Part shown: piece after piece, positions 2,760 to 45,232 of the stretch | Layout: each line of letters starts with the position of its first letter | Numbering within the stretch: the stretch's first letter is position 1 | IMG/VR virus record: IMGVR_UViG_3300031772_003178 | Location: 1-51,495 of that record | DNA from: a virus | Length of the DNA stretch: 51,495 nt | Strand: one strand, 5' to 3' | Made by a program: the position numbers and the translations under genes | Notes under the pieces: generated by a model | Seen by the model: only the letters and a program-made list of their open reading frames with translations | Told to the model about the DNA's origin: nothing | The model's database searches: none

Positions 2760-5675
2760 TTACCTGATGAATACTCTGATTGCGCCTTCGAGTTGAAGTT
2801 GTTGTTCTTGTCTTCTATAATTCCACTGAAGTTTTGGCCGCTCGAGCATGTGACTTTCTACTATGAATTCCTCGCCTATGAAGTTAACTCGTGCTGGCAT
2901 GAGACGACGCGTTAGATCGATAAATGATCTGTCGAAGAACTCAAGCATATCTGCGAACACTCTGAAGTTCAATCTTCCCTGCAGCCTCTTAAAATAGTTC
3001 CTTCGAAGTATTTCAAGATCAGGATAGCTCTCTCGATATCTATTAGCACCGATTCCTATTGCTTCATTGAATCCATCCAGTGTCGAGACGATCTGTGAGA
3101 TATCCTCGTTCAGAGCGTCGATCATGTTGAATTCGAGCGCGACAGTGTTTAGGTCATCAAACGCTTCATCTGGTGTCACCCTGGATTCATCAAGTACGCG
3201 AACTTTGTCATCATTCCAACCATACTCTGGTGATGCTATATAATTGTAATCGTTGAGGAATTTCTTATATGGGTTCTCATCGGCAGTGAATCCCAGCGCT
3301 GATCCAGAAATTCCTCTCCCGGACACGTCATTGATCCCTCCTACCAACGATCCTCCAACGAATGTTGAGTTCTCATTGAGTCTAAGATGTAGATTGAGCA
3401 ACATTCCATCATTTGGTGTGGCTATGCCGAAGCTTTGATAGTTCAATGTGTGATCGTCCAGCTCCGCAGAAGTAAGAGCTTGTTGCCAAACTCTGAATTC
3501 CTGAACCCATTGTTGACTCGGGATGACTCCGCCCGTCGTCGATCCGATATATGCTGTATAGATTCGTGGTGTAGGCGAGACCGTAAATGTTCCAGAGGTA
3601 TACAAGTGTCTATCGATGGCATCGCCATCAAGAGACCTGACCTCGAGGTTCAAGGATGACGATTGAGAGCTTCTAACGAAGGCGATGTTGTACCACCTAT
3701 TATCGAAGATGGATGCTCCCGAAAGGATCAGAGAGCCCTCAGAGCCAGTGAGGATAAGTGATCCCGTCTGGGATGTAAAAGAATCCTTGGCAAAGTTTAG
3801 CTGATATCGCATCGACCCGCTGTTAATCGTCCAGAGTGATCCAGTTCCAATCGATGCTGTCAGGCCAGTGCTAATCTGGTTCGGGAATCTTGCTCTGATC
3901 TCCACAGTTCCAAGAGAGCTCGTAAAAGCATTTATGTTGACTCTATTGCTAGTCATCACTGAACCGCTACCAAATGTCAAAGCGGCAGAGCTTTTCTGTG
4001 CATTAATTCTGAATGTGGATATCCCTGTGTTTTTCTTTGCTCCGTACTCCTTGAGACGCACGAAGTTCTTGTTAACACCATAGACTCGAAATAGAGCTTC
4101 TACACTTTCTCTTGTTCCTTTGCTTTTGTACATGTACATGAGATTCAGGAGCGTTCTTTTCCAAAACTCATTCTTAATCTGATAAAGCTTATTGTCTAGT
4201 TCTTTATTGGCATCAAGATTTGTAAGTACATTTTTGCCAACAAGATATTGGACAGCATCTGCATTGAGAAAATTACCAGTAAACTCCCATCCAAAGAATC
4301 TTGCAGCATCTTGCAAAAGTGCATCGGGTGTTTGATTAAATTCACCATAGTTCACCTTGAGAACATTCGTGAACTGATCGATACCAACCTTCACTTGATC
4401 GAGCTCTCTTGCGATCATGTACAAGAAATCACGAAGAATAGTTGTGTTGTTGAAATCCTCGAGCAATGCAAAGTTCTCAGGAAAGAATCTCATGATGAGA
4501 TTGTCATTGTCTCTATCGTATAGAGTTCCAGATGTTTGCTGATCAGAAACGTGCGAATACACTTCTGGAGCATTATATGACATGATCTGATCTGGGTAAT
4601 CGAATGACAGAAGTGACCCTGATCGTCTCAGAGACGTGTAATAATTTTGAATATTTCCATTCAGTCTGTGTCCAGCATAATCGAGAACGACAGCATTCTC
4701 TACTGGGAAGTTTGTCGACCCTGTTTCATTAAATCTCCAAAGAGCAACGAGCCCGCTCTGTGCGAATATCTTTGTGTTGAAACTAGACGTCACTGTCGAG
4801 AGAACTCTTGTTGTGTTCCACAGCCTTATGTCGTCTAGACATCCAGACAATGGTATTACTGTTTTAGACGCCAACGTACCAGAACCAATGTTGAGTTTAC
4901 TACCGCCAACGTTGATGATTCCTGTTATCGCATGCGTCGCGGACATGACGACGATAGGAAACGATGTGCGTGAACCAGTCATGACTGTCGCCAACAATCC
5001 GTCCTTATCGAACGAGTAAGCGAAGTATGAAGAGACACCTGGAACAGCAGACGCAGATACTTCACTGCTTGTTGATCCAGACGAGAATTTAAAGAATGCT
5101 TTAGATCCAGAGAAATAGACGCTGTATCCATCCATGTTACTTCCACTGACTTTCTGCAGAACGACCATCGCGTCATTGGATCCGGTAAGTGCTGGTGGTG
5201 GAACTGCCCACATTTCTATCGCCCATGATCCTGTTCCAGGGCTAAGCAATGTTGTGCGTGCTACTTTCGCTTCTGTCCCGACATCTGCAATATTGACGTA
5301 TGCAAATCCGCTTGATGGCGTAAAATTGAGATGTCCGATCCTTGCTGGCCACATCGATAATGCATATCGTTGATAATCATCAAGGGAATCAGAGAACATT
5401 TGTCTTGAGTTCTCTGACTGATCGTACGGTAGTTCATTTAGTATCTTTTCACCGGTGATATTGAAATAATCAAGAGCAGAGTTAAAGAAAACAAAGTTTG
5501 CAAAATCTGAGTAGTCGACTTTGAGAGTTACCTTCTCAAAGAGTTTTATCTTGCGAAGCAGATTATCTTGGCCGTCGTCGTCTGGAAAAATGGTCTCGAG
5601 GCTCTGTGCTGGATGAGCGACGAGGTCACTTTGTTTCTTCAAACGATCGTCAAACAAGCTGAATAATCTTGACAT
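2760..5675 (-). CDS. Tail protein with two LamG-like domains and a P2-I-like tail segment (971 aa)
   Basis: Two concanavalin/LamG-like beta-sandwich regions are visible at roughly residues 150-330 and 560-765. Each has the pattern of alternating strands, W-x-I-E-x-W or V-E-I-x-x-R openings and G-S-G turns. Between them, at about 385-545, is a helical segment with FLYMIARELDQVK and a Lys-Gly-Thr-Arg-containing region resembling phage tail protein I (the wedge protein that links baseplate to fibres). LamG domains in phage tails usually bind carbohydrate or form fibre modules. It lies directly after the gp6/gp25 baseplate genes, as expected for a baseplate-to-fibre connector. Its start overlaps the stop of the 61-aa gene by one base. 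Confidence 0.7.
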   Translation of the reverse strand: MSRLFSLFDDRLKKQSDLVAHPAQSLETIFPDDDGQDNLLRKIKLFEKVTLKVDYSDFANFVFFNSALDYFNITGEKILNELPYDQSENSRQMFSDSLDDYQRYALSMWPARIGHLNFTPSSGFAYVNIADVGTEAKVARTTLLSPGTGSWAIEMWAVPPPALTGSNDAMVVLQKVSGSNMDGYSVYFSGSKAFFKFSSGSTSSEVSASAVPGVSSYFAYSFDKDGLLATVMTGSRTSFPIVVMSATHAITGIINVGGSKLNIGSGTLASKTVIPLSGCLDDIRLWNTTRVLSTVTSSFNTKIFAQSGLVALWRFNETGSTNFPVENAVVLDYAGHRLNGNIQNYYTSLRRSGSLLSFDYPDQIMSYNAPEVYSHVSDQQTSGTLYDRDNDNLIMRFFPENFALLEDFNNTTILRDFLYMIARELDQVKVGIDQFTNVLKVNYGEFNQTPDALLQDAARFFGWEFTGNFLNADAVQYLVGKNVLTNLDANKELDNKLYQIKNEFWKRTLLNLMYMYKSKGTRESVEALFRVYGVNKNFVRLKEYGAKKNTGISTFRINAQKSSAALTFGSGSVMTSNRVNINAFTSSLGTVEIRARFPNQISTGLTASIGTGSLWTINSGSMRYQLNFAKDSFTSQTGSLILTGSEGSLILSGASIFDNRWYNIAFVRSSQSSSLNLEVRSLDGDAIDRHLYTSGTFTVSPTPRIYTAYIGSTTGGVIPSQQWVQEFRVWQQALTSAELDDHTLNYQSFGIATPNDGMLLNLHLRLNENSTFVGGSLVGGINDVSGRGISGSALGFTADENPYKKFLNDYNYIASPEYGWNDDKVRVLDESRVTPDEAFDDLNTVALEFNMIDALNEDISQIVSTLDGFNEAIGIGANRYRESYPDLEILRRNYFKRLQGRLNFRVFADMLEFFDRSFIDLTRRLMPARVNFIGEEFIVESHMLERPKLQWNYRRQEQQLQLEGAIRVFIR

Positions 5676-37080: not shown

Positions 37081-38271
37081 TTAACCCTTGACACATAGAA
37101 CTTGCTTCAATTCATGTACGATCTCAACGAGATCACTTTGGTTGCGCATGACTTGTTCGATATCCTTGTATGCTCCTGGAATCTCATCAATCACGTCTGC
37201 ATCCTTTCGGCATTCTACGCCCTTTGTTTGCTCTACGAGATCGGCAAGATTGTACTTGCGCTTTGCTGCTCCTCTGGAGAGCTGACGGCCTGCACCATGT
37301 GATGCGCTCGAGAGAGCATCCTCGTTTCCAAGACCGCGGACGATAAATGACTTAGCGCCCATGGATCCCGGGATGATTCCCATCTCACCCTTTTTGGCCG
37401 AGATTGCGCCTTTCCTGGTGACGAAGAGATCCTCTCCGAAATGATTCTCCTCGGAGACATAATTGTGATGACAAAGAACAGGAGATGCAAAAGTTACATG
37501 TGGAACGAACTTGCGAAGAGCATCCTTGTAGAGCTCGAACATGAACTTTCTGTTCAACATCGCGTAACGCTGAGCCCAGTAAAGATCACGACGGTAAGCC
37601 TGCATCTCTGGAGTTCCTGAGAGGAATACGGCAAGATCTGGATCAACAAGAGCGGCATTGTGTCCAAGCTCCTTCGCCTTCCACATGTGGACTTCTGCGA
37701 GAGTCTTTCCGATGTTACGGGAACCAGAATGAAGCATCATCCAAACCTGGCCGTGAGTATCGACGCACAACTCGATGAAGTGGTTACCTCCACCAAGAGT
37801 TCCGACCTGGAGCTTTGCTTTCTGTTCGATTCCCGAAACATACGGGTCGAGATCCTTGAATTCTGAAAATAGATCCTTGAACTCGTTCTTGAGCACTCGC
37901 ATCGCAAGATCACCAGGAACGTGAACGACCTCGTGGGAATTGAACCCGACAGGAATGGCACGCTCAATCTCTGAACGGAGATCTTTCAAGTTGTCTGGCA
38001 ACTCTGATGCGGCGAGATTGGTTCGCATCGCACCCATCCCACAACCAATATCAACGCCGACAGCAGCCGGAGAAACTGCTCCACGCATACCGACGACGGA
38101 TCCAACGGTTGCTCCTTTCCCAAAATGACAATCAGGCATGACGGCCACATGTGCGACCCATGGAAGTGAAGCAATATTTCGAAGCTGAGTCAGAGCTTGA
38201 GACTCAACCTCAGAAACAGGCAACCACAGCTTTGCAGTTACAGTGTTACCCTTTAGTTCGCTAATTGACAT
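37081..38271 (-). CDS. rtcB: RNA ligase RtcB (396 aa)
   Basis: All hallmark motifs are present: MPDCHFGKGATVGSVV (about residues 45-60), AVGVDIGCGMGAMR with the catalytic Cys at about 77, GGNHFIELC, LHSGSRNIG, GSMGAKSFIV and the SHGAGR histidine motif near residue 317-322. RtcB joins RNA 3'-phosphate or 2',3'-cyclic phosphate ends to 5'-OH ends using GTP and Mn2+. Length is normal. It sits beside the tRNA archipelago, so it may repair cleaved tRNAs or join ends of the permuted tRNA-like RNAs. AGGTGATGT precedes the ATG. Confidence 0.95.
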   Translation of the reverse strand: MSISELKGNTVTAKLWLPVSEVESQALTQLRNIASLPWVAHVAVMPDCHFGKGATVGSVVGMRGAVSPAAVGVDIGCGMGAMRTNLAASELPDNLKDLRSEIERAIPVGFNSHEVVHVPGDLAMRVLKNEFKDLFSEFKDLDPYVSGIEQKAKLQVGTLGGGNHFIELCVDTHGQVWMMLHSGSRNIGKTLAEVHMWKAKELGHNAALVDPDLAVFLSGTPEMQAYRRDLYWAQRYAMLNRKFMFELYKDALRKFVPHVTFASPVLCHHNYVSEENHFGEDLFVTRKGAISAKKGEMGIIPGSMGAKSFIVRGLGNEDALSSASHGAGRQLSRGAAKRKYNLADLVEQTKGVECRKDADVIDEIPGAYKDIEQVMRNQSDLVEIVHELKQVLCVKG

Positions 38272-39343: not shown

Positions 39344-39437
39344 TAGTTCAAAATCGTAAAAGGATTTTTGGTCTTGCGACCGAGATCATATTGCCTCTGT
39401 CTATAGCACCGTTTAATCCCACAGGTCATTTTGATGC
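39344..39437 (-). other. Structured spacer with GNRA hairpins
   Basis: It contains GGTC-GCAA-GACC, a GNRA-capped hairpin, and AAAATC/GATTTT. No gene was found. It may be part of the precursor RNA of permuted unit 2. Confidence 0.4.
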
Positions 39438-39519
39438 CCCCACGCCTTGCCTTTGGGCTACCCGTTCATGAGTAGTAATTCTAAACGAACGGGGTTGGAA
39501 TCGAACCAACATCTTGGAG
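39438..39519 (-). ncRNA. Circularly permuted tRNA-like unit 2 (82 nt)
   Basis: Order on the minus strand is anticodon-stem 3' strand CTCCA, T-arm GTTGG-TTCGATT-CCAAC, acceptor 3' strand CCCGTTC, a 19-nt linker, acceptor 5' strand GAACGGG, TA, D-arm with loop CAAAGGCAA, anticodon-stem 5' strand TGGGG. The acceptor pairs 7/7 and the anticodon stem 5/5 (one G-U). No non-permuted partner for either half was found nearby. Outer flanks can also pair (CTGTGGG/CTCACAG). Confidence 0.7.
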
Positions 39520-39615
39520 GAAAAGCTCTGTGAGAACTTGATCTACATACATTGCAACAAGGTTGAGTTTGGAGTATTCAAGTTTTATGAAAAGTCCTTC
39601 TCATCCCGTCATGAA

Positions 39616-39691
39616 GTCTGGCTGCCTCTACCGTTGGGCTACCCAAGGATTGTCCTTGGGGATTAGATTTGAACTAACACTGTGTCCAGAC
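39616..39691 (-). ncRNA. Circularly permuted tRNA-like unit 1 (76 nt)
   Basis: Order is GTCTGG (anticodon-stem 3' strand), T-arm GTTAG-TTCAAAT-CTAAT, CCCAAGG, a five-base linker ACAAT, CCTTGGG, TA, D-arm GCC...GGC with loop containing GG, then CCAGAC. Acceptor pairs 7/7, anticodon stem 6/6. One extra C lies between T-stem and acceptor. The acceptor end is capped by CAA if A-T is paired. Its flanks pair by GGACTTT/AAAGTCC and TACTCC/GGAGTA. Confidence 0.75.
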
Positions 39692-39748
39692 AAGACGGAC
39701 TTTGAAGATTACCTTTGAACTTCAGTTTGAGTTTGTACTCCTGAATCT

Positions 39749-40480
39749 TTAGCCGAAAATATACGACATCGCGGCTTCACCCGTCTTCAACTCGACGGCG
39801 CTTGTCTGATTGGCTTCCTCACGTGCATACTTCACGGCGCGAATGAGCTTGTCGACGCGCTCTGACAACTCCTGAACGCGATCCTTGGTGAGAGCTCCGG
39901 AGAACTTGACAGTTTTCCAAGTTCCGACCGTGACGTCCTCAACGGTCTTGACAGTCTGAGCTGGGTGTTCCTTTGTCGGAGGAACGATGACCTTGTAATC
40001 CTCGACCTTCTTGGTGGAGTTCACCTCAACAGCTGGAGTACGGAACAAGCTCTGGGCGATATCGAACTCCCAGCTCTCATCCTGAGAAAGGACAGGCAGC
40101 TTCTTGACGAACTGAGCGAGATCAACCAGCTTCTTCTCCATGAACAAGAGGTGAACGGCCGGAACGCTCTTCACGATCACCTTACCGTCGATAGAAATAT
40201 CTGCTAACGCGGTGCAGTTAGTGGCGTCCTTCTGAGCAACGACGTCAAAGACGTCGACCAAAGCCTTCTTGGCAGACTTGAGAGTCTCCTCGGCCTTGAC
40301 TTGAACCTTCTTGCTTTGAGGAGGAAGAACCTCACCAAGCTCTGTCTTTGCCTGATAAGTCTTAGAGAAGCCATTCAACAGCTCCTGCTTCTGAACGTCC
40401 TGGTAAAGCCTGGTGAGCTCATCCTCGCGCTTGTTCTTGACATTCTTCTCGATCGACAGCAGCTGGTTCAGCTTGGCCAT
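39749..40480 (-). CDS. DUF7873-like protein (243 aa)
   Basis: The sequence (MAKLNQLLSIEKNVKNK, TYQAKTELGEVLPPQSKKVQ, KDATNCTALADISIDGK, LTKDRVQELSERVDKLIRAVKYAREEAN) looks like a widespread phage and actinobacterial family of unknown function that I recognise as DUF7873. AGGTGA lies 9 bases before the ATG at 40480; a longer frame starts 18 codons earlier. Its 3' end is next to permuted unit 1. An extended -10 box (TGTTATTAT) lies upstream. Confidence 0.7.
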   Translation of the reverse strand: MAKLNQLLSIEKNVKNKREDELTRLYQDVQKQELLNGFSKTYQAKTELGEVLPPQSKKVQVKAEETLKSAKKALVDVFDVVAQKDATNCTALADISIDGKVIVKSVPAVHLLFMEKKLVDLAQFVKKLPVLSQDESWEFDIAQSLFRTPAVEVNSTKKVEDYKVIVPPTKEHPAQTVKTVEDVTVGTWKTVKFSGALTKDRVQELSERVDKLIRAVKYAREEANQTSAVELKTGEAAMSYIFG

Positions 40481-40621
40481 GTATTCACCTTTAGTTTGAC
40501 TTCGTGTGTGTGTTAACAAAAGAGATAATAACACAAATAAAACTAGAATGAAAGGATCCTGTATATTGTTGTAAGGGCGATCTTCCGACCGTCATTACGC
40601 GCTACAGGAAACGCTTATGTG
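40481..40621 (-). promoter_or_regulatory. Promoter region candidate of the DUF7873 gene
   Basis: Minus strand has TGTTATTAT (TG, T, TATTAT) near 40537-40545, about 60 bases before the ATG, in an AT-rich stretch. The rest is spacer downstream of tRNA-Val with no gene. Confidence 0.35.
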
Positions 40622-40692
40622 TGCAAGCGGACGGTATCGATCCGTCGTCTTCGGCGAGTCATGCCGATGTTCTACCTTTGAACCACGCGAGC
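40622..40692 (-). tRNA. tRNA-Val (GAC), acceptor imperfect
   Basis: Anticodon stem TCGGC/GCCGA, loop ATGACTC. T-arm GACGG/CCGTC, loop ATCGATA. The acceptor GCTCGCG/CGCTTGC has two mismatches, and base 37 is U, so function is less sure. Confidence 0.6.
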
Positions 40693-40719
40693 AAATACAT
40701 ACGAGTTGATAGTTTCATG

Positions 40720-41092
40720 TGTAGGTGTCGGGAATCGAACCCGAGTCCAAAGGATCTTCCGAAGCTGGCACAACGAGCGTTTCTCTGTAACCCTGAGCAG
40801 GGTGTTTCTTGCTGTCTTCCATAAGTTCCATAAGAAGGGTTGAGTATGGACTCGTCCAATCCTATCCCGTGTGATTGCGTGCCGAAGTTACCCAGGAGCT
40901 TCTTGCTCCGGCACGTCCCTGCAGTTTTTAGGCTGCTGCGAACATGCCGTGGCTCATCGCCGCGATCATATAAGCAGGAAGCTCAACGTTGTCGTTAGCT
41001 TTTAATTCGTGGTCCGCTTTTTACGTGGCCTGCTGACCAACCTCGGCTCGCATCTGCTTCTTATTTTCCCCTGTCGATACCAGGTCACCCAC
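40720..41092 (-). ncRNA. ssrA: Phage tmRNA
   Basis: 5' end GTGGGTGACCTGGTATCGACAGG resembles tmRNA starts; 3' end GGACTCGGGTTCGATTCCCGACACCTAC is the tRNA-like domain with acceptor GTGGGTG/CACCTAC (one G-U). The tag frame (40928-40999) starts with GCT after AAAA and encodes ANDNVELPAYMIAAMSHGMF then AAA, 23 residues. tmRNA rescues stalled ribosomes and tags the product. The tag ends AAA, not LAA. CCA is not encoded. The 5' end overlaps the 3' end of the adenine methyltransferase gene by 72 bases. Confidence 0.9.
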
Positions 41093-41626
41093 TTTTCGTA
41101 CTTCTACTTCTACGTCCTTAAAAATTTCTTTTCCCCAAGTGTGCCAACCAGGAGTCTGCTTCCTTGCGAAGAGCTCCAAATATGGACCAGGACTTACCCT
41201 CTCAATCATCACTCGAAGTTCCTCGGGTTTCTCAGAGTGGCGCTTTCGTTTGGCCATGAGGAGTGTCCTACCTTGTGCTCTCTTTCCATCTGAGAGGACT
41301 CGGTAGGGGATATTTCCACGTACTCCAAAAAGTACATGTTCTGTTTGTCCACGATAGTACTGACCGAGCCCCATCCTGTCCTTTGCCCAAGTGATCGTCG
41401 TGATGTAACGAAACCCCCAAGCAGCCATAACGCGAAGACCGTCGGGAAGATGGCTGTTCGTCACCCAAAGATAGAGATGCGAGTTTAAGGCAGAATGTTT
41501 CTCGACATCGAGAGCCATGATATCTTCGGTTCGCATGACAGAATAATGCTTATCTGCACCACGCTTAATTTTGCCGCCGCCAAGCTCTCTCCATGGAGGA
41601 TCTGCTAGAATGGTTGAATAAAGCAT
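41021..41626 (-). CDS. MT-A70-type N6-adenine methyltransferase (201 aa)
   Basis: ILADPPWRELGG contains the DPPW catalytic motif, and LYLWVTNSHLPDGLRVMAAWG plus the C-terminal ELFARKQTPGWHTWG are typical of MT-A70 DNA methyltransferases. It should methylate adenine in DNA, perhaps protecting the phage genome. I start it at the ATG at 41626; a longer frame would run through tRNA-like sequence. An extended -10 box lies directly before it and there is no SD. Confidence 0.8.
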   Translation of the reverse strand: MLYSTILADPPWRELGGGKIKRGADKHYSVMRTEDIMALDVEKHSALNSHLYLWVTNSHLPDGLRVMAAWGFRYITTITWAKDRMGLGQYYRGQTEHVLFGVRGNIPYRVLSDGKRAQGRTLLMAKRKRHSEKPEELRVMIERVSPGPYLELFARKQTPGWHTWGKEIFKDVEVEVRKVGDLVSTGENKKQMRAEVGQQAT

Positions 41627-41633
41627 GAATTGA

Positions 41634-41644
41634 ATTATATCATA
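41634..41644 (-). promoter_or_regulatory. Extended -10 promoter candidate before the MT-A70 gene
   Basis: Minus strand reads TATGATATAAT. Only 7 bases separate TATAAT from the ATG at 41626, which points to a leaderless or nearly leaderless transcript. The same 11-mer occurs at 51064-51074. Confidence 0.5.
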
Positions 41645-41816
41645 AAATGGACCGGATGGGACTCGAACCCATTCTCCTCTCGCGAAGGAATCCCAGATCG
41701 CCCCCATAAATTGGAGACTACGGGAATCGGACCCGTCTATGACACCACTGTCGGCCCAAAAATATCGTGGTGTCGAGCCACTCTCGACCTTTGTCAGCAG
41801 TAAGCTGAGCCACATG
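41645..41816 (-). other. tRNA-like remnants with three T-arm-like hairpins
   Basis: Two clear T-arms (ATGGG-TTCGAGT-CCCAT and ACGGG-TCCGATT-CCCGT), each followed by an acceptor-like end (CCGGTCCA, AGTCTCCA), plus a weaker GTGG-CTCGACA-CCAC. No matching D-arms or 5' acceptor strands were found either up- or downstream. A long stem GACACCAC/GTGGTGTC encloses 18 bases. They could be decayed tRNAs or halves of split genes. Confidence 0.4.
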
Positions 41817-41888
41817 TGACCTCGGAGAGAATCGAACTCTCTTTTCCTGGCTGAGAACCAGGCGTCCTACCAATAGACAGACGAGGCC
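41817..41888 (-). tRNA. tRNA-Glu (CTC)
   Basis: Acceptor GGCCTCG/CGAGGTC, D-arm TGTC/GGAC, anticodon stem CCTGG/CCAGG, loop TTCTCAG. T-loop TTCGATT. Confidence 0.9.
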
Positions 41889-41928
41889 ATTTGTTAGTTT
41901 AAAGTGCTCACGCACCATGCGCAACTCT

Positions 41929-41991
41929 CGGGATCGAACCGAGTTTCATCGCTCTTCAGGCGATCACATTTACCCTAAATGTTAAGTTGGC
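41929..41991 (-). tRNA. tRNA-Phe (GAA), acceptor end mismatched
   Basis: Anticodon stem ATCGC/GCGAT, loop CTGAAGA. T-arm CTCGG/CCGAG, loop TTCGATC. D-arm ACAT/ATGT. The acceptor GCCAACT/AGTTGCG mismatches at its two outer pairs, in the part that belongs to the 32-bp repeat. Confidence 0.75.
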
Positions 41992-42076
41992 AAAAACAAT
42001 GACCACTGAGAGGTTAAGTTGGCAAAAACAATGACCACTGAGAGGTTAAGTTGGCAAAAACAATGACCCTTGAGAG
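41981..42076. repeat. Three tandem copies of a 32-bp unit
   Basis: The unit starts gttaagttggcaaaaacaat and repeats at 41981, 42013 and 42045; copies 1 and 2 match exactly and the third differs at two positions. Each unit contains part of the tRNA-Glu 3' end and the 5' acceptor of tRNA-Phe. No spacers exist, so it is not CRISPR. Slipped duplication is the likely origin. Confidence 0.85.
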
Positions 42077-42135
42077 AATCGAACTCTCTTTCTCAGATTG
42101 AAAGTCTGATATCCTACCAATAGATTGAAAGGGCC
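42064..42135 (-). tRNA. tRNA-Glu (TTC)
   Basis: Acceptor GGCCCTT/AAGGGTC, anticodon stem TCAGA/TCTGA, loop CTTTCAA. T-arm GAGAG/CTCTC, loop TTCGATT. Its 3' end is inside the tandem repeat. Confidence 0.9.
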
Positions 42136-42202
42136 AAATGAGATCGTATTGAAGGAATACAAATCTCGGTGGACATTAGGGCTTTCGCCCTCCTTCGTCC
42201 TG
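42136..42202 (-). ncRNA. Two-hairpin structured spacer (67 nt)
   Basis: Hairpin one contains GGGC-GAAA-GCCC (GNRA loop) closed further out by GGAC/GTCC. Hairpin two is GAGAT/ATCTC around GTATT-CCTTC-AATAC. It lies between tRNA-Asp and tRNA-Glu. Function unknown. Confidence 0.4.
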
Positions 42203-42274
42203 CGCCCCGTATGGGTATCGATCCCATCTCAACGGATTGACAATCCGCCCGCCACACCTGCGGCGTCACGAGGC
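42203..42274 (-). tRNA. tRNA-Asp (GTC)
   Basis: Acceptor GCCTCGT/ACGGGGC (one wobble). D-stem CGCC/GGCG. Anticodon stem GCGGA/TCCGT, loop TTGTCAA. T-loop ATCGATA. Confidence 0.85.
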
Positions 42275-42289
42275 AATATATTTCTACAG

Positions 42290-42361
42290 TGAGTCGCCCC
42301 GGTAACGATCCGGGTTCGCCAACTTAAGAGGCTGGTGCTTCACCATTAAAGCTTGCGACTC
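42290..42361 (-). tRNA. tRNA-Lys (CTT)
   Basis: Acceptor GAGTCGC/GCGACTC, D-stem GCTT/AAGC, anticodon stem CCAGC/GTTGG, loop CTCTTAA. T-arm CCCGG/CCGGG, loop ATCGTTA. Confidence 0.85.
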
Positions 42362-42371
42362 ATTCAACTAT

Positions 42372-42457
42372 ACACCACATAGGGTGTCGATCCCTATCCC
42401 AACACCGATCTGGTGCGAAGGAGGTATAAGCTCCTGGTGGGCGCCGGCCCTTGGGTG
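42372..42457 (-). tRNA. tRNA-like, anticodon TAT (Ile?), unusual
   Basis: Anticodon stem AGGAG/CTCCT with loop CTTATAC. T-arm TAGGG/CCCTA, loop ATCGACA. A long variable region with CACC/GGTG, a four-base D-loop and a poorly paired acceptor make it atypical. It may be a decayed tRNA. Confidence 0.5.
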
Positions 42458-42474
42458 CATGAAATTCTTTACTG

Positions 42475-42549
42475 TGCCCCCGACGAGATTCGAACTCGTA
42501 CTGCCGGGATTCTGAGACCCGTGACTCCTACCAGTTGGTCTACGTGGGC
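42475..42549 (-). tRNA. tRNA-Leu (CAG), short variable loop
   Basis: D-arm GAC/GTC with loop CAACTGGTAGGA. Anticodon stem CGGGT/TCCCG (one mismatch), loop CTCAGAA. T-arm ACGAG/CTCGT, loop TTCGAAT. The variable region is only GCAGT, unlike normal type II tRNA-Leu. Confidence 0.75.
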
Positions 42550-42565
42550 ATGCAACTTCTTCCAG

Positions 42566-42648
42566 TGGGTACGGAGAGATTTGAACTCTCATGTCTTTCG
42601 ACACCAGATCCTAAGTCTGGCGTGTATGCCAATTTCCACCACGCACCC
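42566..42648 (-). tRNA. tRNA-Leu (TAG)
   Basis: Type II with variable arm TGTCGAAAGACAT. Anticodon stem CCAGA/TCTGG, loop CTTAGGA. T-loop TTCAAAT. Acceptor GGGTGCG/CGTACCC has one mismatch. Confidence 0.85.
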
Positions 42649-42658
42649 ATTTTTACAG

Positions 42659-42733
42659 TGCCGCTACCGGGATTCGAACCCGGACTGCTACGTTACTCAA
42701 ACGTATGACTCCTACCAGTTGGTCTACAGCGGC
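42659..42733 (-). tRNA. tRNA-Leu (GAG), short variable loop
   Basis: Same D-arm as the CAG tRNA. Anticodon stem TACGT/ACGTA, loop TTGAGTA. T-arm CCGGG/CCCGG, loop TTCGAAT. Acceptor GCCGCTG/TAGCGGC. Variable region GCAGT. Confidence 0.75.
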
Positions 42734-42749
42734 ATGAAACATCTTGGTT

Positions 42750-42800
42750 GTGAGTACCCGGCCGGGATTCTCATTCCTCATGAAAGAATGCTAGACTCAC
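42750..42800 (-). ncRNA. Compact tRNA-like element, CAT-like loop (51 nt)
   Basis: Outer stem GTGAGT/ACTCAC encloses ATTCT-TTCATGA-GGAAT (anticodon-like stem with loop TTCATGA) and CCCGGCCGGG, a T-stem-like palindrome without a loop. It has no D-arm. It lies 2 bases upstream of the 3' end of tRNA-Arg(TCG). The same loop sequence TTCATGA follows the anticodon-stem 5' strand of permuted unit 1. Confidence 0.45.
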
Positions 42801-42802
42801 AG

Positions 42803-42877
42803 TACTCCCAGACGGATTTGAACCGCCACTTTTCCTCGTTCGAAGCGAGGTAGCCTTTCCAGTTGGCCGATGGGAGC
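42803..42877 (-). tRNA. tRNA-Arg (TCG)
   Basis: Acceptor GCTCCCA/TGGGAGT, anticodon stem CCTCG/CGAGG, loop CTTCGAA. T-arm GGCGG/CCGTC, loop TTCAAAT. Confidence 0.85.
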
Positions 42878-42891
42878 ATGATTTACTGCAG

Positions 42892-42965
42892 TGTCTCCAT
42901 TGAGATTCGAACTCAAAACCTCTGCCTTCGCAGGGCAGTGCTCTATCCAATTGAGCTATGGGGAC
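42892..42965 (-). tRNA. tRNA-Arg (GCG)
   Basis: Acceptor GTCCCCA/TGGAGAC (one mismatch). D-stem GCTC/GAGC. Anticodon stem CTGCC/GGCAG, loop CTGCGAA. T-arm TTGAG/CTCAA, loop TTCGAAT. Confidence 0.85.
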
Positions 42966-42970
42966 ATAGA

Positions 42971-43015
42971 CAGATCCGGAACCATTCCACCCACGAGTTG
43001 AACGTGGCAGATCTG
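42971..43015 (-). ncRNA. Three-way-junction RNA with T-loop, copy b (45 nt)
   Basis: Outer stem CAGATC/GATCTG encloses a T-arm CCACG-TTCAACT-CGTGG and a small hairpin GGAA-TGG-TTCC. The next copy (43021-43066) has the same interior but a different outer stem. Confidence 0.6.
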
Positions 43016-43020
43016 CTTTT

Positions 43021-43066
43021 GTTTTCCGGGAACCATCCCATCCACGTATCGAACGTAGCAGAAAAC
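43021..43066 (-). ncRNA. Three-way-junction RNA with T-loop, copy a (46 nt)
   Basis: Outer stem GTTTTC/GAAAAC encloses a T-arm CTACG-TTCGATA-CGTGG and a hairpin GGGA-TGGT-TCCC. Compared with copy b the outer stem changes completely but stays paired, which is the signature of a selected RNA structure. Order T-arm then hairpin matches the permuted units. Confidence 0.6.
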
Positions 43067-43179
43067 TTGTATAAAGAGACATAGTGGAGGTTGAATCACC
43101 CGACAGTCTTCCAGTGCGTTGTACTTTTTCAAGCCGCCTGAAGCTGACGTCGATGCATTCATGACCCTGTTCTGTCTCA
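43067..43179 (-). other. Structured spacer closed by GAGACA/TGTCTC
   Basis: A six-pair stem closes about 110 bases between tRNA-Gly(CCC) and the three-way-junction pair. Inner segments can form short hairpins, but no tRNA arm or gene was recognised. Confidence 0.35.
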
Positions 43180-43251
43180 AGCGGCCAATGGGAATCGAAC
43201 CCATGTCGTCTGATTGGGAATCAGACATTCTACCATTGAAATTATGGCCGC
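43180..43251 (-). tRNA. tRNA-Gly (CCC)
   Basis: Acceptor GCGGCCA/TGGCCGC, anticodon stem TCTGA/TCAGA, loop TTCCCAA. T-arm ATGGG/CCCAT, loop TTCGATT. Confidence 0.9.
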
Positions 43252-43311
43252 AAAAGTTGGAGACTCTCTCGTCTCCCTGTCATGCCTGGTTTTACGGCGG
43301 CATTCCCTGAG
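43252..43311 (-). other. Spacer with two hairpins
   Basis: ATGCC/GGCAT around 12 bases, then GGAGAC-GAGAGA-GTCTCC. Between tRNA-Met and tRNA-Gly. Function unknown; it could be a processing signal. Confidence 0.35.
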
Positions 43312-43386
43312 TTGCGGTCATGGGAGTCGAACCCAATTTATTCCAGCTTATGAGACTGGCCGAGATCCTCACCTCTACCTCCCGCA
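43312..43386 (-). tRNA. tRNA-Met (CAT), second copy
   Basis: Anticodon stem CCAGT/GCTGG, loop CTCATAA. T-loop TTCGACT. Acceptor has two mismatches near its inner end. It could be an elongator Met or an Ile tRNA with modified C34. Confidence 0.7.
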
Positions 43387-43388
43387 AG

Positions 43389-43461
43389 AGCGGTCAACGA
43401 GATTCGAACTCGTGACTTCAGGCTGGCAACCTGAGATGTTTCCAGACTACACCATGACCGC
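43389..43461 (-). tRNA. tRNA-Gly (GCC)
   Basis: Acceptor GCGGTCA/TGACCGC, anticodon stem TCAGG/CCTGA, loop TTGCCAG. T-arm ACGAG/CTCGT, loop TTCGAAT. Confidence 0.9.
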
Positions 43462-43476
43462 ATTTTTATTACAAAG

Positions 43477-43549
43477 TCGAGTATGCTGGATTTGAACCAG
43501 CGACGAAGGCTTCCAAGGCCAACAGGATTCCAGGCTTCCACAATACTCG
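43477..43549 (-). tRNA. tRNA-Pro (TGG)
   Basis: Acceptor CGAGTAT/ATACTCG. Loop CTTGGAA, anticodon stem weak in its outer two pairs. T-arm GCTGG/CCAGC, loop TTCAAAT. Confidence 0.8.
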
Positions 43550-43645
43550 ATAATTGATCTGATTGTCTCGACAGATCACGAGGGAAGCTGTATATTCCAG
43601 GAGCGCTACTCCTGATTAGGTTGATCTCCTTCCAGTCTAACACAG
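43550..43645 (-). other. Hairpin-rich spacer
   Basis: CAGGAG-TAGCG-CTCCTG, GATCTG...CAGATC and an outer GGAAG/CTTCC can form. It lies between two Pro tRNAs. No T-loop, so not a permuted tRNA by this test. Confidence 0.35.
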
Positions 43646-43718
43646 TCGAGAGTCTGAGATTTGAACTCAGAATGCCGCAATCCGAATGCGGAAGGATACC
43701 AGATTTCCACAACTCTCG
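43646..43718 (-). tRNA. tRNA-Pro (CGG)
   Basis: Acceptor CGAGAGT/ACTCTCG. Anticodon stem CCGCA/TGCGG, loop TTCGGAT. T-arm CTGAG/CTCAG, loop TTCAAAT. Confidence 0.85.
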
Positions 43719-43733
43719 ATGGTAAATAAAATG

Positions 43734-43842
43734 GCGCGTGTATTTACCAATATACTAAAAGGATGACTCAATTGCCAAGTCTTTTGTAATGACGATGCTA
43801 TCGTTCATTTAACCTTTGAAGGAATCGAACCTTCGTCCGCGC
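43734..43842 (-). ncRNA. Circularly permuted tRNA-like unit 3 (109 nt)
   Basis: Order is GCGCG, T-arm GAAGG-TTCGATT-CCTTC, AAAGGTT, 46-nt linker with two hairpins, ATCCTTT, TA, D-arm GTAT...ATAC with ATTGGTA in the loop, CGCGC. Acceptor pairs 6/7, anticodon stem 5/5. The 3' half starts 4 bases after the discriminator of tRNA-Val(TAC), and tRNA-Pro begins 15 bases after the other end. Confidence 0.7.
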
Positions 43843-43846
43843 TTGA

Positions 43847-43917
43847 TAGTCCCTGAGTGAATCGAACACTCAACTACGGTATGTAACACCGCGGTTTTGC
43901 CATTAAACTAAAGGACC
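43847..43917 (-). tRNA. tRNA-Val (TAC)
   Basis: Acceptor GGTCCTT/AGGGACT with wobbles. Anticodon stem GCGGT/ACCGT, loop GTTACAT. T-arm GAGTG/CACTC, loop TTCGATT. Confidence 0.85.
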
Positions 43918-44136
43918 ATGATGCTCGTCTTTCCGAGTCGCCAATACCGTAGATCGGTATCACATCTCGCGGGATAACTGCCCCCTCGCAACCACCGTGT
44001 ACTCAGAGCACGGACTCTTTAAAAATTCGACGTAGTGACTCTGAATAACTGCCGTCATTCTGCTTCACTAAATGTGGCAGACCGCGGTGACCACCACATC
44101 GTTCAAAACCTTCACAGGGTCTTGTCAAACCGTCTA
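43918..44136 (-). ncRNA. Hairpin-rich non-coding region with anticodon-like stem-loop (219 nt)
   Basis: At least five hairpins: CAAGACC-CTGTGAA-GGTTTTG (loop looks like a GTG anticodon loop), GATGTGG...CCACATT, a long imperfect hairpin TAGTGA...TCACTA with GGCA at its top, CCGTG/CACGG, and ATACCG-ATCTA-CGGTAT. No coding frame is convincing. Possibly a structured RNA, or a decayed group of tRNAs. Confidence 0.45.
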
Positions 44137-44207
44137 CACGTGATGAAGGAATCGAACCCTCCTAGCCAGATTTGGAGTTTGGCGTCTTTCCACTAGACGA
44201 ATCACGT
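44137..44207 (-). tRNA. tRNA-Trp (CCA)
   Basis: Acceptor ACGTGAT/ATCACGT. Anticodon stem CCAAA/TCTGG with one mismatch, loop CTCCAAA. T-arm GAGGG/CCTTC, loop TTCGATT. Confidence 0.85.
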
Positions 44208-44254
44208 ATATTCCTTGGATCATTCTCGTTCTTTTGCTTTATTCATAATAAAAG

Positions 44255-44331
44255 CGCCCCAGGAGGGAGTCGAACCCACATGTGTCCAGTTACCCTTTCA
44301 TCAGCTTAGAAGGCTGAGGGGATACTAAGGC
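44255..44331 (-). tRNA. tRNA-Arg (TCT), no D-arm
   Basis: Acceptor GCCTTAG/CTGGGGC pairs fully with two wobbles. Anticodon stem TCAGC/GCTGA, loop CTTCTAA. T-loop TTCGACT. Only 7 bases, TATCCCC, lie between acceptor and anticodon stem, so there is no D-arm, and the variable region is about 21 bases. Confidence 0.6.
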
Positions 44332-44340
44332 ATCAAAATA

Positions 44341-44461
44341 AGGGCTGTTTTACCATTAAACTATACGAAAACGCAGGTAATTAATCTGCATCTCGATCAA
44401 TGACCCGTCGGTCGGTGATCAACGTAGTTCGAAACAGGATTTCGAAACCTGTATCTGCCCT
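44341..44461 (-). ncRNA. Circularly permuted tRNA-like unit 4 (121 nt)
   Basis: Order is AGGGC, T-arm ACAGG-TTTCGAAAT-CCTGT, acceptor 3' strand around CGAACTACG, about 49-nt linker with hairpins, 5' strand around CGTTTTCG, TA, D-arm GTTT-AATGGTA-AAAC, GCCCT. Anticodon stem 5/5. The acceptor pairs in two blocks (CGT/ACG and TTCG/CGAA). The 3' half starts 2 bases after the discriminator of tRNA-Ile. Confidence 0.6.
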
Positions 44462-44463
44462 AG

Positions 44464-44537
44464 TGCGCCTTAAAGGAGTCGAACCTTTGTCTTCCGCTTA
44501 TCGAGCGGAGGTACTTTAGCCGTTGTACGAAAGGCGC
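44464..44537 (-). tRNA. tRNA-Ile (GAT)
   Basis: Acceptor GCGCCTT/AAGGCGC, anticodon stem TCCGC/GCGGA, loop TCGATAA (C at 33). T-arm AAAGG/CCTTT, loop TTCGACT. Confidence 0.75.
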
Positions 44538-44558
44538 ATGAAATATTTCTAAAACGCG

Positions 44559-44631
44559 GAGGGCGCTTGACCGCTAAGCTAACCCAAAGTCTTACGACTC
44601 TCAGTATTGGATTCGAACCAATGTCTCCCTC
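44559..44631 (-). ncRNA. Circularly permuted tRNA-like unit 5, GNRA-capped (73 nt)
   Basis: Order is GAGGG, T-arm ATTGG-TTCGAAT-CCAAT, ACTGAGA, linker GTC-GTAA-GAC, TTTGGGT, TA, D-arm GCTT...AAGC, CCCTC. The linker caps the acceptor helix with a GNRA tetraloop (GTAA), so the acceptor end is sealed. Anticodon stem 5/5; acceptor 6/7 with wobbles. It lies 3 bases after the discriminator of tRNA-Leu(CAA). Confidence 0.75.
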
Positions 44632-44634
44632 TAG

Positions 44635-44709
44635 TGCTCACACCGGGATTCGAACCCAGACTTAAGGCGTTTTGAGTGCCTTGCCTGCTACCAATTGGGC
44701 TATATGAGC
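44635..44709 (-). tRNA. tRNA-Leu (CAA), short variable loop
   Basis: Acceptor GCTCATA/TGTGAGC. D-arm GCC/GGC with AATTGGTAG. Loop CTCAAAA, anticodon stem AGGCA/CGCCT with one mismatch. T-loop TTCGAAT. Variable region short. Confidence 0.75.
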
Positions 44710-44767
44710 ATTACCATACCGCTTTGACTTTTTTGTGTCTCTGAGAGCTTCGAGTTAATTCAAGGAG

Positions 44768-44841
44768 TCCACCGGAAGGGGGTCGAACCCTTACTTTGCG
44801 GATTTTAAGTTCGCTGCCTCTGCCGATTGGGCTACCTGTGG
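44768..44841 (-). tRNA. tRNA-Leu (TAA), short variable loop
   Basis: Acceptor CCACAGG/CCGGTGG. D-arm GCC...GGC with CAATCGGCAGA. Anticodon stem GCGAA/TCCGC (one mismatch), loop CTTAAAA. T-loop TTCGACC. Variable region AAAGT. Confidence 0.75.
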
Positions 44842-44846
44842 ATGAG

Positions 44847-44931
44847 TGGAGTGTGAGGGAGTCGAACCCACCATGCCTTGCGGCACCTGGTTTACAGCCA
44901 AGCGGGACACCCAACGGTCCACGTACACTCC
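44847..44931 (-). tRNA. tRNA-Tyr (GTA)
   Basis: Type II with variable arm TGCCGCAAGGCAT. Anticodon stem CTTGG/CCAGG, loop CTGTAAA. Acceptor GGAGTGT/ACACTCC. T-loop TTCGACT. Confidence 0.9.
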
Positions 44932-44948
44932 ATAAGAATTTCGTACAG

Positions 44949-45025
44949 CGTCTCTCCAGGGAATCGAACCCTGCTCAAATCGGTTAACAGCCGATTGCTA
45001 AGTTCACCAGACCAGCTCTAGAGAC
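44949..45025 (-). tRNA. tRNA-Asn (GTT)
   Basis: Anticodon stem ATCGG/CCGAT, loop CTGTTAA. T-arm CAGGG/CCCTG, loop TTCGATT. Acceptor GTCTCTA/GAGAGAC has one mismatch. Confidence 0.9.
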
Positions 45026-45039
45026 ATGAATTACTGCAG

Positions 45040-45113
45040 TAGGTCCTGAGAGACTCGAACTCTCATTGGGCAGCTTAAAAGGCTGTGGTAATTTCCGATT
45101 ATACTAAGGACCC
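45040..45113 (-). tRNA. tRNA-Lys (TTT)
   Basis: Acceptor GGGTCCT/AGGACCT (G-U at end). Anticodon stem ACAGC/GCTGC, loop CTTTTAA. T-arm GAGAG/CTCTC, loop TTCGAGT. Confidence 0.85.
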
Positions 45114-45154
45114 GTGATTGTTGCAACTTCTACATTATAATACAAATAAAACGA

Positions 45155-45232
45155 GAAAGTGTCCTCCATTAGACGACCGCCCCATAAAATAAAAACGGTG
45201 GGGCGGGCAGGATTTAAACCTACGTTACTTCC
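45155..45232 (-). ncRNA. Circularly permuted tRNA-like unit 6 (78 nt)
   Basis: Order is GGAAG, T-arm GTAGG-TTTAAAT-CCTGC, CCGCCCC, 16-nt AT-rich linker, GGGGCGG, TC, D-arm GTC-TAATGGAG-GAC, CTTTC. Acceptor pairs 7/7; anticodon stem 5/5 with one G-U. The 3' half begins 4 bases after the C73 of tRNA-His. Confidence 0.75.

Follow-up and report, generated by a model that had tools for sequence, protein, structure and literature searches.

Does this phage tRNA array contain tRNA genes in which the 3' half precedes the 5' half, or do its permuted units belong to another kind of RNA? The question is raised by a viral DNA of 51,495 nucleotides (IMG/VR record IMGVR_UViG_3300031772_003178, positions 1 to 51,495; here called the window), for which the initial annotation proposed at least six tRNA-like units with the T-arm half before the D-arm half. 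We scanned the window for a T-arm and acceptor 3' strand, then a linker, then the acceptor 5' strand and a D-arm, all enclosed by complementary anticodon-stem strands. Across 51 kb on two strands, the four best scores (22.8 to 23.4) belonged to the units at 43734-43842, 45155-45232, 44559-44631, and 39438-39519, and the runner-up, at 19.6, was a chance match with a 126-base linker. Ordinary tRNAs score 20.2 to 25.4 with the same terms. None of 300 shuffles of the 11.5-kb region reached 22 and none of 400 shuffles of the nine gaps between tRNAs reached 23, so that the four units stand well outside the shuffled range. Five of the six units, all on the minus strand, have the permuted topology. 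As first described, the acceptor stem is paired at 7 of 7 positions in three units (39438-39519 and 45155-45232 in the scan, 39616-39691 by eye); 6 of 7 are paired in 43734-43842 and 44559-44631. The remaining unit, 44341-44461, was rejected, as its T and acceptor stems are irregular by eye, it does not fold into a permuted cloverleaf, and only part of it was matched by the covariance model described below (13.4 bits).

That model, R1, was derived from 16 class B cores found in relatives, with the window sequence excluded, and with linkers shortened or padded to about eight letters and carrying no pairs. An earlier model that mixed classes A and B was dropped, since its alignment slipped at the D-arm. 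R1 recovered 39438-39519, 44559-44631, and 45155-45232 (Table 1). The class A unit, 39616-39691, was marginal: its match, at 39619-39687, is near background, the junctions of neighboring normal RNA genes in the window giving 25.9 to 27.6 bits (background about 26 to 28), and the case for this unit is therefore mainly its place in the module described below and its flanking helix. The unit at 43734-43842 was missed by R1, having a 46-base linker, and is backed by its scan score and by minimum-energy folding without constraints.

Table 1. Features of the window discussed in the text
Feature	Position	Strand	Evidence and remarks
DUF7873 (PF25283) protein gene	39749-40534	-	Pfam 294.8 bits, E 7e-88; proposed Y RNA partner
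Class A Y RNA-like RNA	39561-39742, core 39616-39691	-	R1 28.2 bits; outer limits approximate, predicted fold
Class B Y RNA-like RNA, YrlA type	39415-39534, core 39438-39519	-	R1 64.5 bits
Array unit without Y stem, acceptor arm capped by a GUAA tetraloop	44559-44631	-	R1 46.4 bits
Array unit without Y stem	45155-45232	-	R1 41.0 bits; unconstrained fold
Probable array unit, 46-base linker	43734-43842	-	Scan 23.4; unconstrained fold
RtcB RNA ligase gene near the module	37081-38271	-	Pfam 403 bits; linkage not conserved
Ordinary one-piece tmRNA	40719-41092		

Matches of this kind could arise at the junction of two similar neighboring tRNAs, where the 3' half of the first and the 5' half of the second together mimic a permuted unit. 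With R1, the junctions of tRNA arrays can give a background of 26 to 30 bits, rising to as much as 52 bits in related contigs where similar tRNAs stand in tandem, and high-scoring units in two of the related records (L004 and L006) turned out to be such junctions. The window units, however, sit wholly inside the gaps between annotated tRNAs, and one of them is conserved in the same gap of a relative, L002: the counterpart of 44559-44631 lies between tRNA-Leu(caa) and tRNA-Ile(gat), scores 60.3 bits, and has stems changed by compensation. We give this explanation almost no credence, and for the five accepted units it is ruled out; other low-scoring matches may be junctions.

Downstream of the DUF7873 gene, two of the units (39616-39691 and 39438-39519) stand in tandem as a pair, and this arrangement recurs widely. 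Relatives were collected by protein searches with DUF7873, which led to contigs and isolates with clear permuted units beside the gene. In prokaryote genomes, a scan returned 77 loci with DUF7873, mainly in Actinobacteria, with others in metagenome-assembled genomes of Myxococcales, Chloroflexi, Spirochaetales, and Planctomycetota. R1 units lie at most about 0.5 kb downstream of the gene at 76 of these loci, counted by eye, and mostly there are two; the one exception, L070, showed no R1 unit downstream. R1 units were also found near the gene in 26 of 26 phage loci tested, among them loci of Arthrobacter, Gordonia, Rhodococcus, Pseudanabaena, Vibrio, and Klebsiella phages. At one locus (L040) the pair is upstream of the gene. 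The permuted topology is strongly conserved in other phages and bacteria, and the class A unit of the window is the first after DUF7873, as it is in the relatives. From this linkage alone, we infer that DUF7873 binds the paired RNAs. A structure model of the protein had a mean pLDDT of 83 and no convincing match among PDB or viral structures; with none in PHROGs or PADLOC either, DUF7873 was rejected as a Ro60 or another known fold. A search of the open literature returned no paper on it. In the Klebsiella phage vB_KpM_FBKp24 (L056), the class B unit at 4069-4163 is overlapped by an annotated 'tRNA-Sup-TTA' at 4027-4106, a label that is probably mistaken.

The pairing of the class B units is well conserved. 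In the 16 cores, which had been picked for pairing, 96.4% of the pair cells are standard, both bases vary in 19 of 21 pairs, and none of 500 shuffles was equal to this. Outside that selection, the flanks are more complementary to their true partners than to swapped ones (mean 18.1 versus 12.2). RNAalifold returned the T, acceptor, and D stems together with an outer stem, with compensatory changes in 20 of 21 pairs. The stem joining the two ends of the DUF7873-linked RNAs is thus seen in class B by covariation and in the window's own class B unit by its unconstrained fold, a cloverleaf on the outer stem. It is weaker in class A, where complementary flanks are conserved by eye and the outer stem lacks clear covariation; the window unit has a flanking helix, AAAGTCC/GGACTTT, and its minimum-energy fold instead pairs CCGTC with GACGG.

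A permuted cloverleaf on a stem of this kind recalls YrlA, a tRNA-mimicking Y RNA of bacteria whose features, as used here, follow Rfam, citing papers, and general background. The YrlA order of stems (T-arm, acceptor hairpin, D-arm) was found by the scan, by R1, and in the unconstrained folds. In an Rfam scan at relaxed threshold, units of several loci, chiefly the second unit, matched YrlA. The best match, L042, gave 43.6 bits over positions 1 to 114, other DUF7873-linked units gave 31 to 38 bits, and the matches in relatives span the full length of the model below threshold. The window unit at 39438-39519 also matches over the full length, weakly (25.7 bits, E 0.029, against 25.0 for a false match), so that its identification comes from the shared topology and the relatives. 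No unit reached the YrlA gathering score of 69 (range, 25 to 44 bits), and for this reason we name the RNAs Y RNA-like and not members of YrlA. A permuted self-splicing intron was rejected when the Rfam scans gave no intron family.

The initial annotation took the units for permuted tRNA genes. In such genes the ends of the transcript would be joined, for example by RtcB, into a circle from which RNase P and 3' processing would remove the linker to leave a decoding tRNA. The complete stems fit this, as do the NCCA that often follows the acceptor strand in the linkers, some of which end in CAT as the spacers of the window tRNAs do, and the RtcB gene about 1.1 kb from the module. Yet the 7-base anticodon loop with U33 that a joined, decoding tRNA would carry is not conserved: U occupies position 33 in 33 of 133 DUF7873-linked units (16 of 66 in class A, 17 of 67 in class B), against 36 of 37 window tRNAs. 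Class B has at the junction a conserved distal helix, which may be part of a bulge-helix-bulge motif, and an asymmetric internal loop, often of 5 to 9 by 10 to 15 bases. Tetraloops close some of the acceptor arms, only 2 of the 24 other DUF7873 phage records have RtcB, and a splicing endonuclease is not expected in bacteria. Position 33, the Y stem, and the scarcity of RtcB led us to reject ligated permuted tRNAs, and the subthreshold YrlA matches point the same way; we regard decoding-tRNA precursors as highly improbable. The permuted units are genuine RNA folds, and they look more like Y RNAs than like scrambled tRNA genes.

A related proposal would leave the acceptor arm open. RNase P and 3' processing would cut it, and the Y stem would hold the pieces of the nicked tRNA mimic together; such an RNA, for which the two-piece tmRNA is a known precedent, might be chargeable. 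The linker begins with ACCA, TCCA, or GCCA in 31 of the 133 units. Many units, however, are without CCA, and four-base linkers and tetraloop-capped arms occur, which makes two-piece RNAs an unlikely product.

The known protein partner of Y RNAs, Ro60, is rare alongside DUF7873. Its TROVE domain was absent from 24 of 24 DUF7873 phage records searched, a weak absence since many records are fragments, and was found in 9 of 20 DUF7873 bacterial genomes, mostly as partial matches. No Ro60/Rsr gene was found in the window, itself a 51-kb fragment. One virus contig (the L015 record) has RtcB and TROVE without DUF7873, and in it a permuted unit (L160, 1467-1537, minus strand) lies close to the TROVE gene (91426-92331 of the record), a Ro60-linked arrangement.

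Taken together, we consider it likely that the pair at 39.4 to 39.7 kb consists of tandem YrlA-type Y RNAs, that the module has DUF7873 in the place of Ro60, and that the copies in the array are the head without the stem. What the data show is the fold with its covariation, the linkage to DUF7873, and how seldom Ro60 accompanies it; the contact between protein and RNA, the effector, and the gain for the phage are proposals. We read this as a Y RNA module of a known kind, in which the replacement of Ro60 by DUF7873 is the new variation. Each RNA of the pair would carry a tRNA-like cloverleaf in permuted order on a long stem formed by its own ends. DUF7873 would bind this stem, taking the role of Ro60/Rsr, and the head may dock an effector or compete for PNPase, tRNA modification enzymes, or anticodon nucleases, presumably to the benefit of the phage.

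The array copies differ in their surroundings. The units at 44559-44631 and 45155-45232, and probably 43734-43842, start 2 to 3 bases after the upstream tRNA, which leaves no space for the 5' strand of a stem, and none has a flanking helix above the swapped level. The array had no DNA match in the phage collection. It is conceivable, if rather doubtful, that 44559-44631, with its L002 counterpart, and 45155-45232 are free-standing tRNA decoys, released by processing of the flanking tRNAs and occupying host anticodon nucleases or tRNA-processing enzymes.

Several other RNA features were seen on the minus strand of the window. A probable tRNA-Asp(gtc) at 42203-42275, missed by ARAGORN, matches the Rfam tRNA-Sec model at 35.5 bits and has a 7/7 acceptor stem by eye. 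A tRNA-like sequence at 44255-44331 scores 28.8 bits against the Rfam tRNA gathering score of 29; judged by eye, its anticodon stem is like that of Arg(tct) and its D-arm is odd. At 42966-43070 there are two tandem hairpin RNAs of 40-odd bases with a T-loop-like hairpin, and their closing stems, GTTTTC/GAAAAC and AGATC/GATCT, differ yet match. The first bases of tRNA-Phe (GCCAACTTAAC) are repeated in tandem with the same spacer at 41981-42062, upstream of the tRNA-Phe gene. The leucine tRNAs at 44634-44709, 44767-44841, 42474-42549, and 42658-42733 have 75 to 76 bases and a short variable loop, and class A units have D-arms in the style of the Leu(taa) gene.

These results make DUF7873 a candidate second protein partner of Y RNAs, besides Ro60, in Actinobacteria, several other phyla, and large phages, and the role of tRNA-mimic Y RNAs becomes testable in tractable hosts. 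Searches for permuted tRNAs will also return Y RNA-like genes and the junctions of tandem tRNAs. The initial annotation knew of no such family in a phage. This stands for permuted tRNA genes, for which we found no phage description in the open literature, and it does not stand for Y RNAs that mimic tRNA, already reported in phages (PMC12282133 and PMC7765460, with reference to the Wolin laboratory); that kind of RNA is accordingly not new in itself.

Three known systems invite comparison. Circularly permuted tRNA genes, known from red algae and archaea (PMC3978253), share the 3' half before the 5' half and a spacer between the acceptor strands, whereas here the anticodon loop and U33 are not conserved and a conserved distal stem is found instead. 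The permuted two-piece tmRNA (Rfam RF04321) likewise has reversed acceptor halves with a spacer between them; the units described here have no tag reading frame, and the window phage also has a one-piece tmRNA. The closest resemblance in architecture is to YrlA (Rfam RF02553), bound by Rsr/Ro60, which shares the permuted head on an end-to-end stem with internal loops. PMC7790460 describes two Salmonella Y RNAs, yrlB and yrlA, adjoining the partner gene in the order rsr-yrlBA-rtcBA, similar to the DUF7873 module, and considers competition of YrlA for an anticodon nuclease as a possibility. The RNAs of the present module differ from YrlA in scoring 25 to 44 bits against a gathering score of 69, in having a DUF7873 and not a TROVE gene as the partner, and in being accompanied by stemless copies in the tRNA array.
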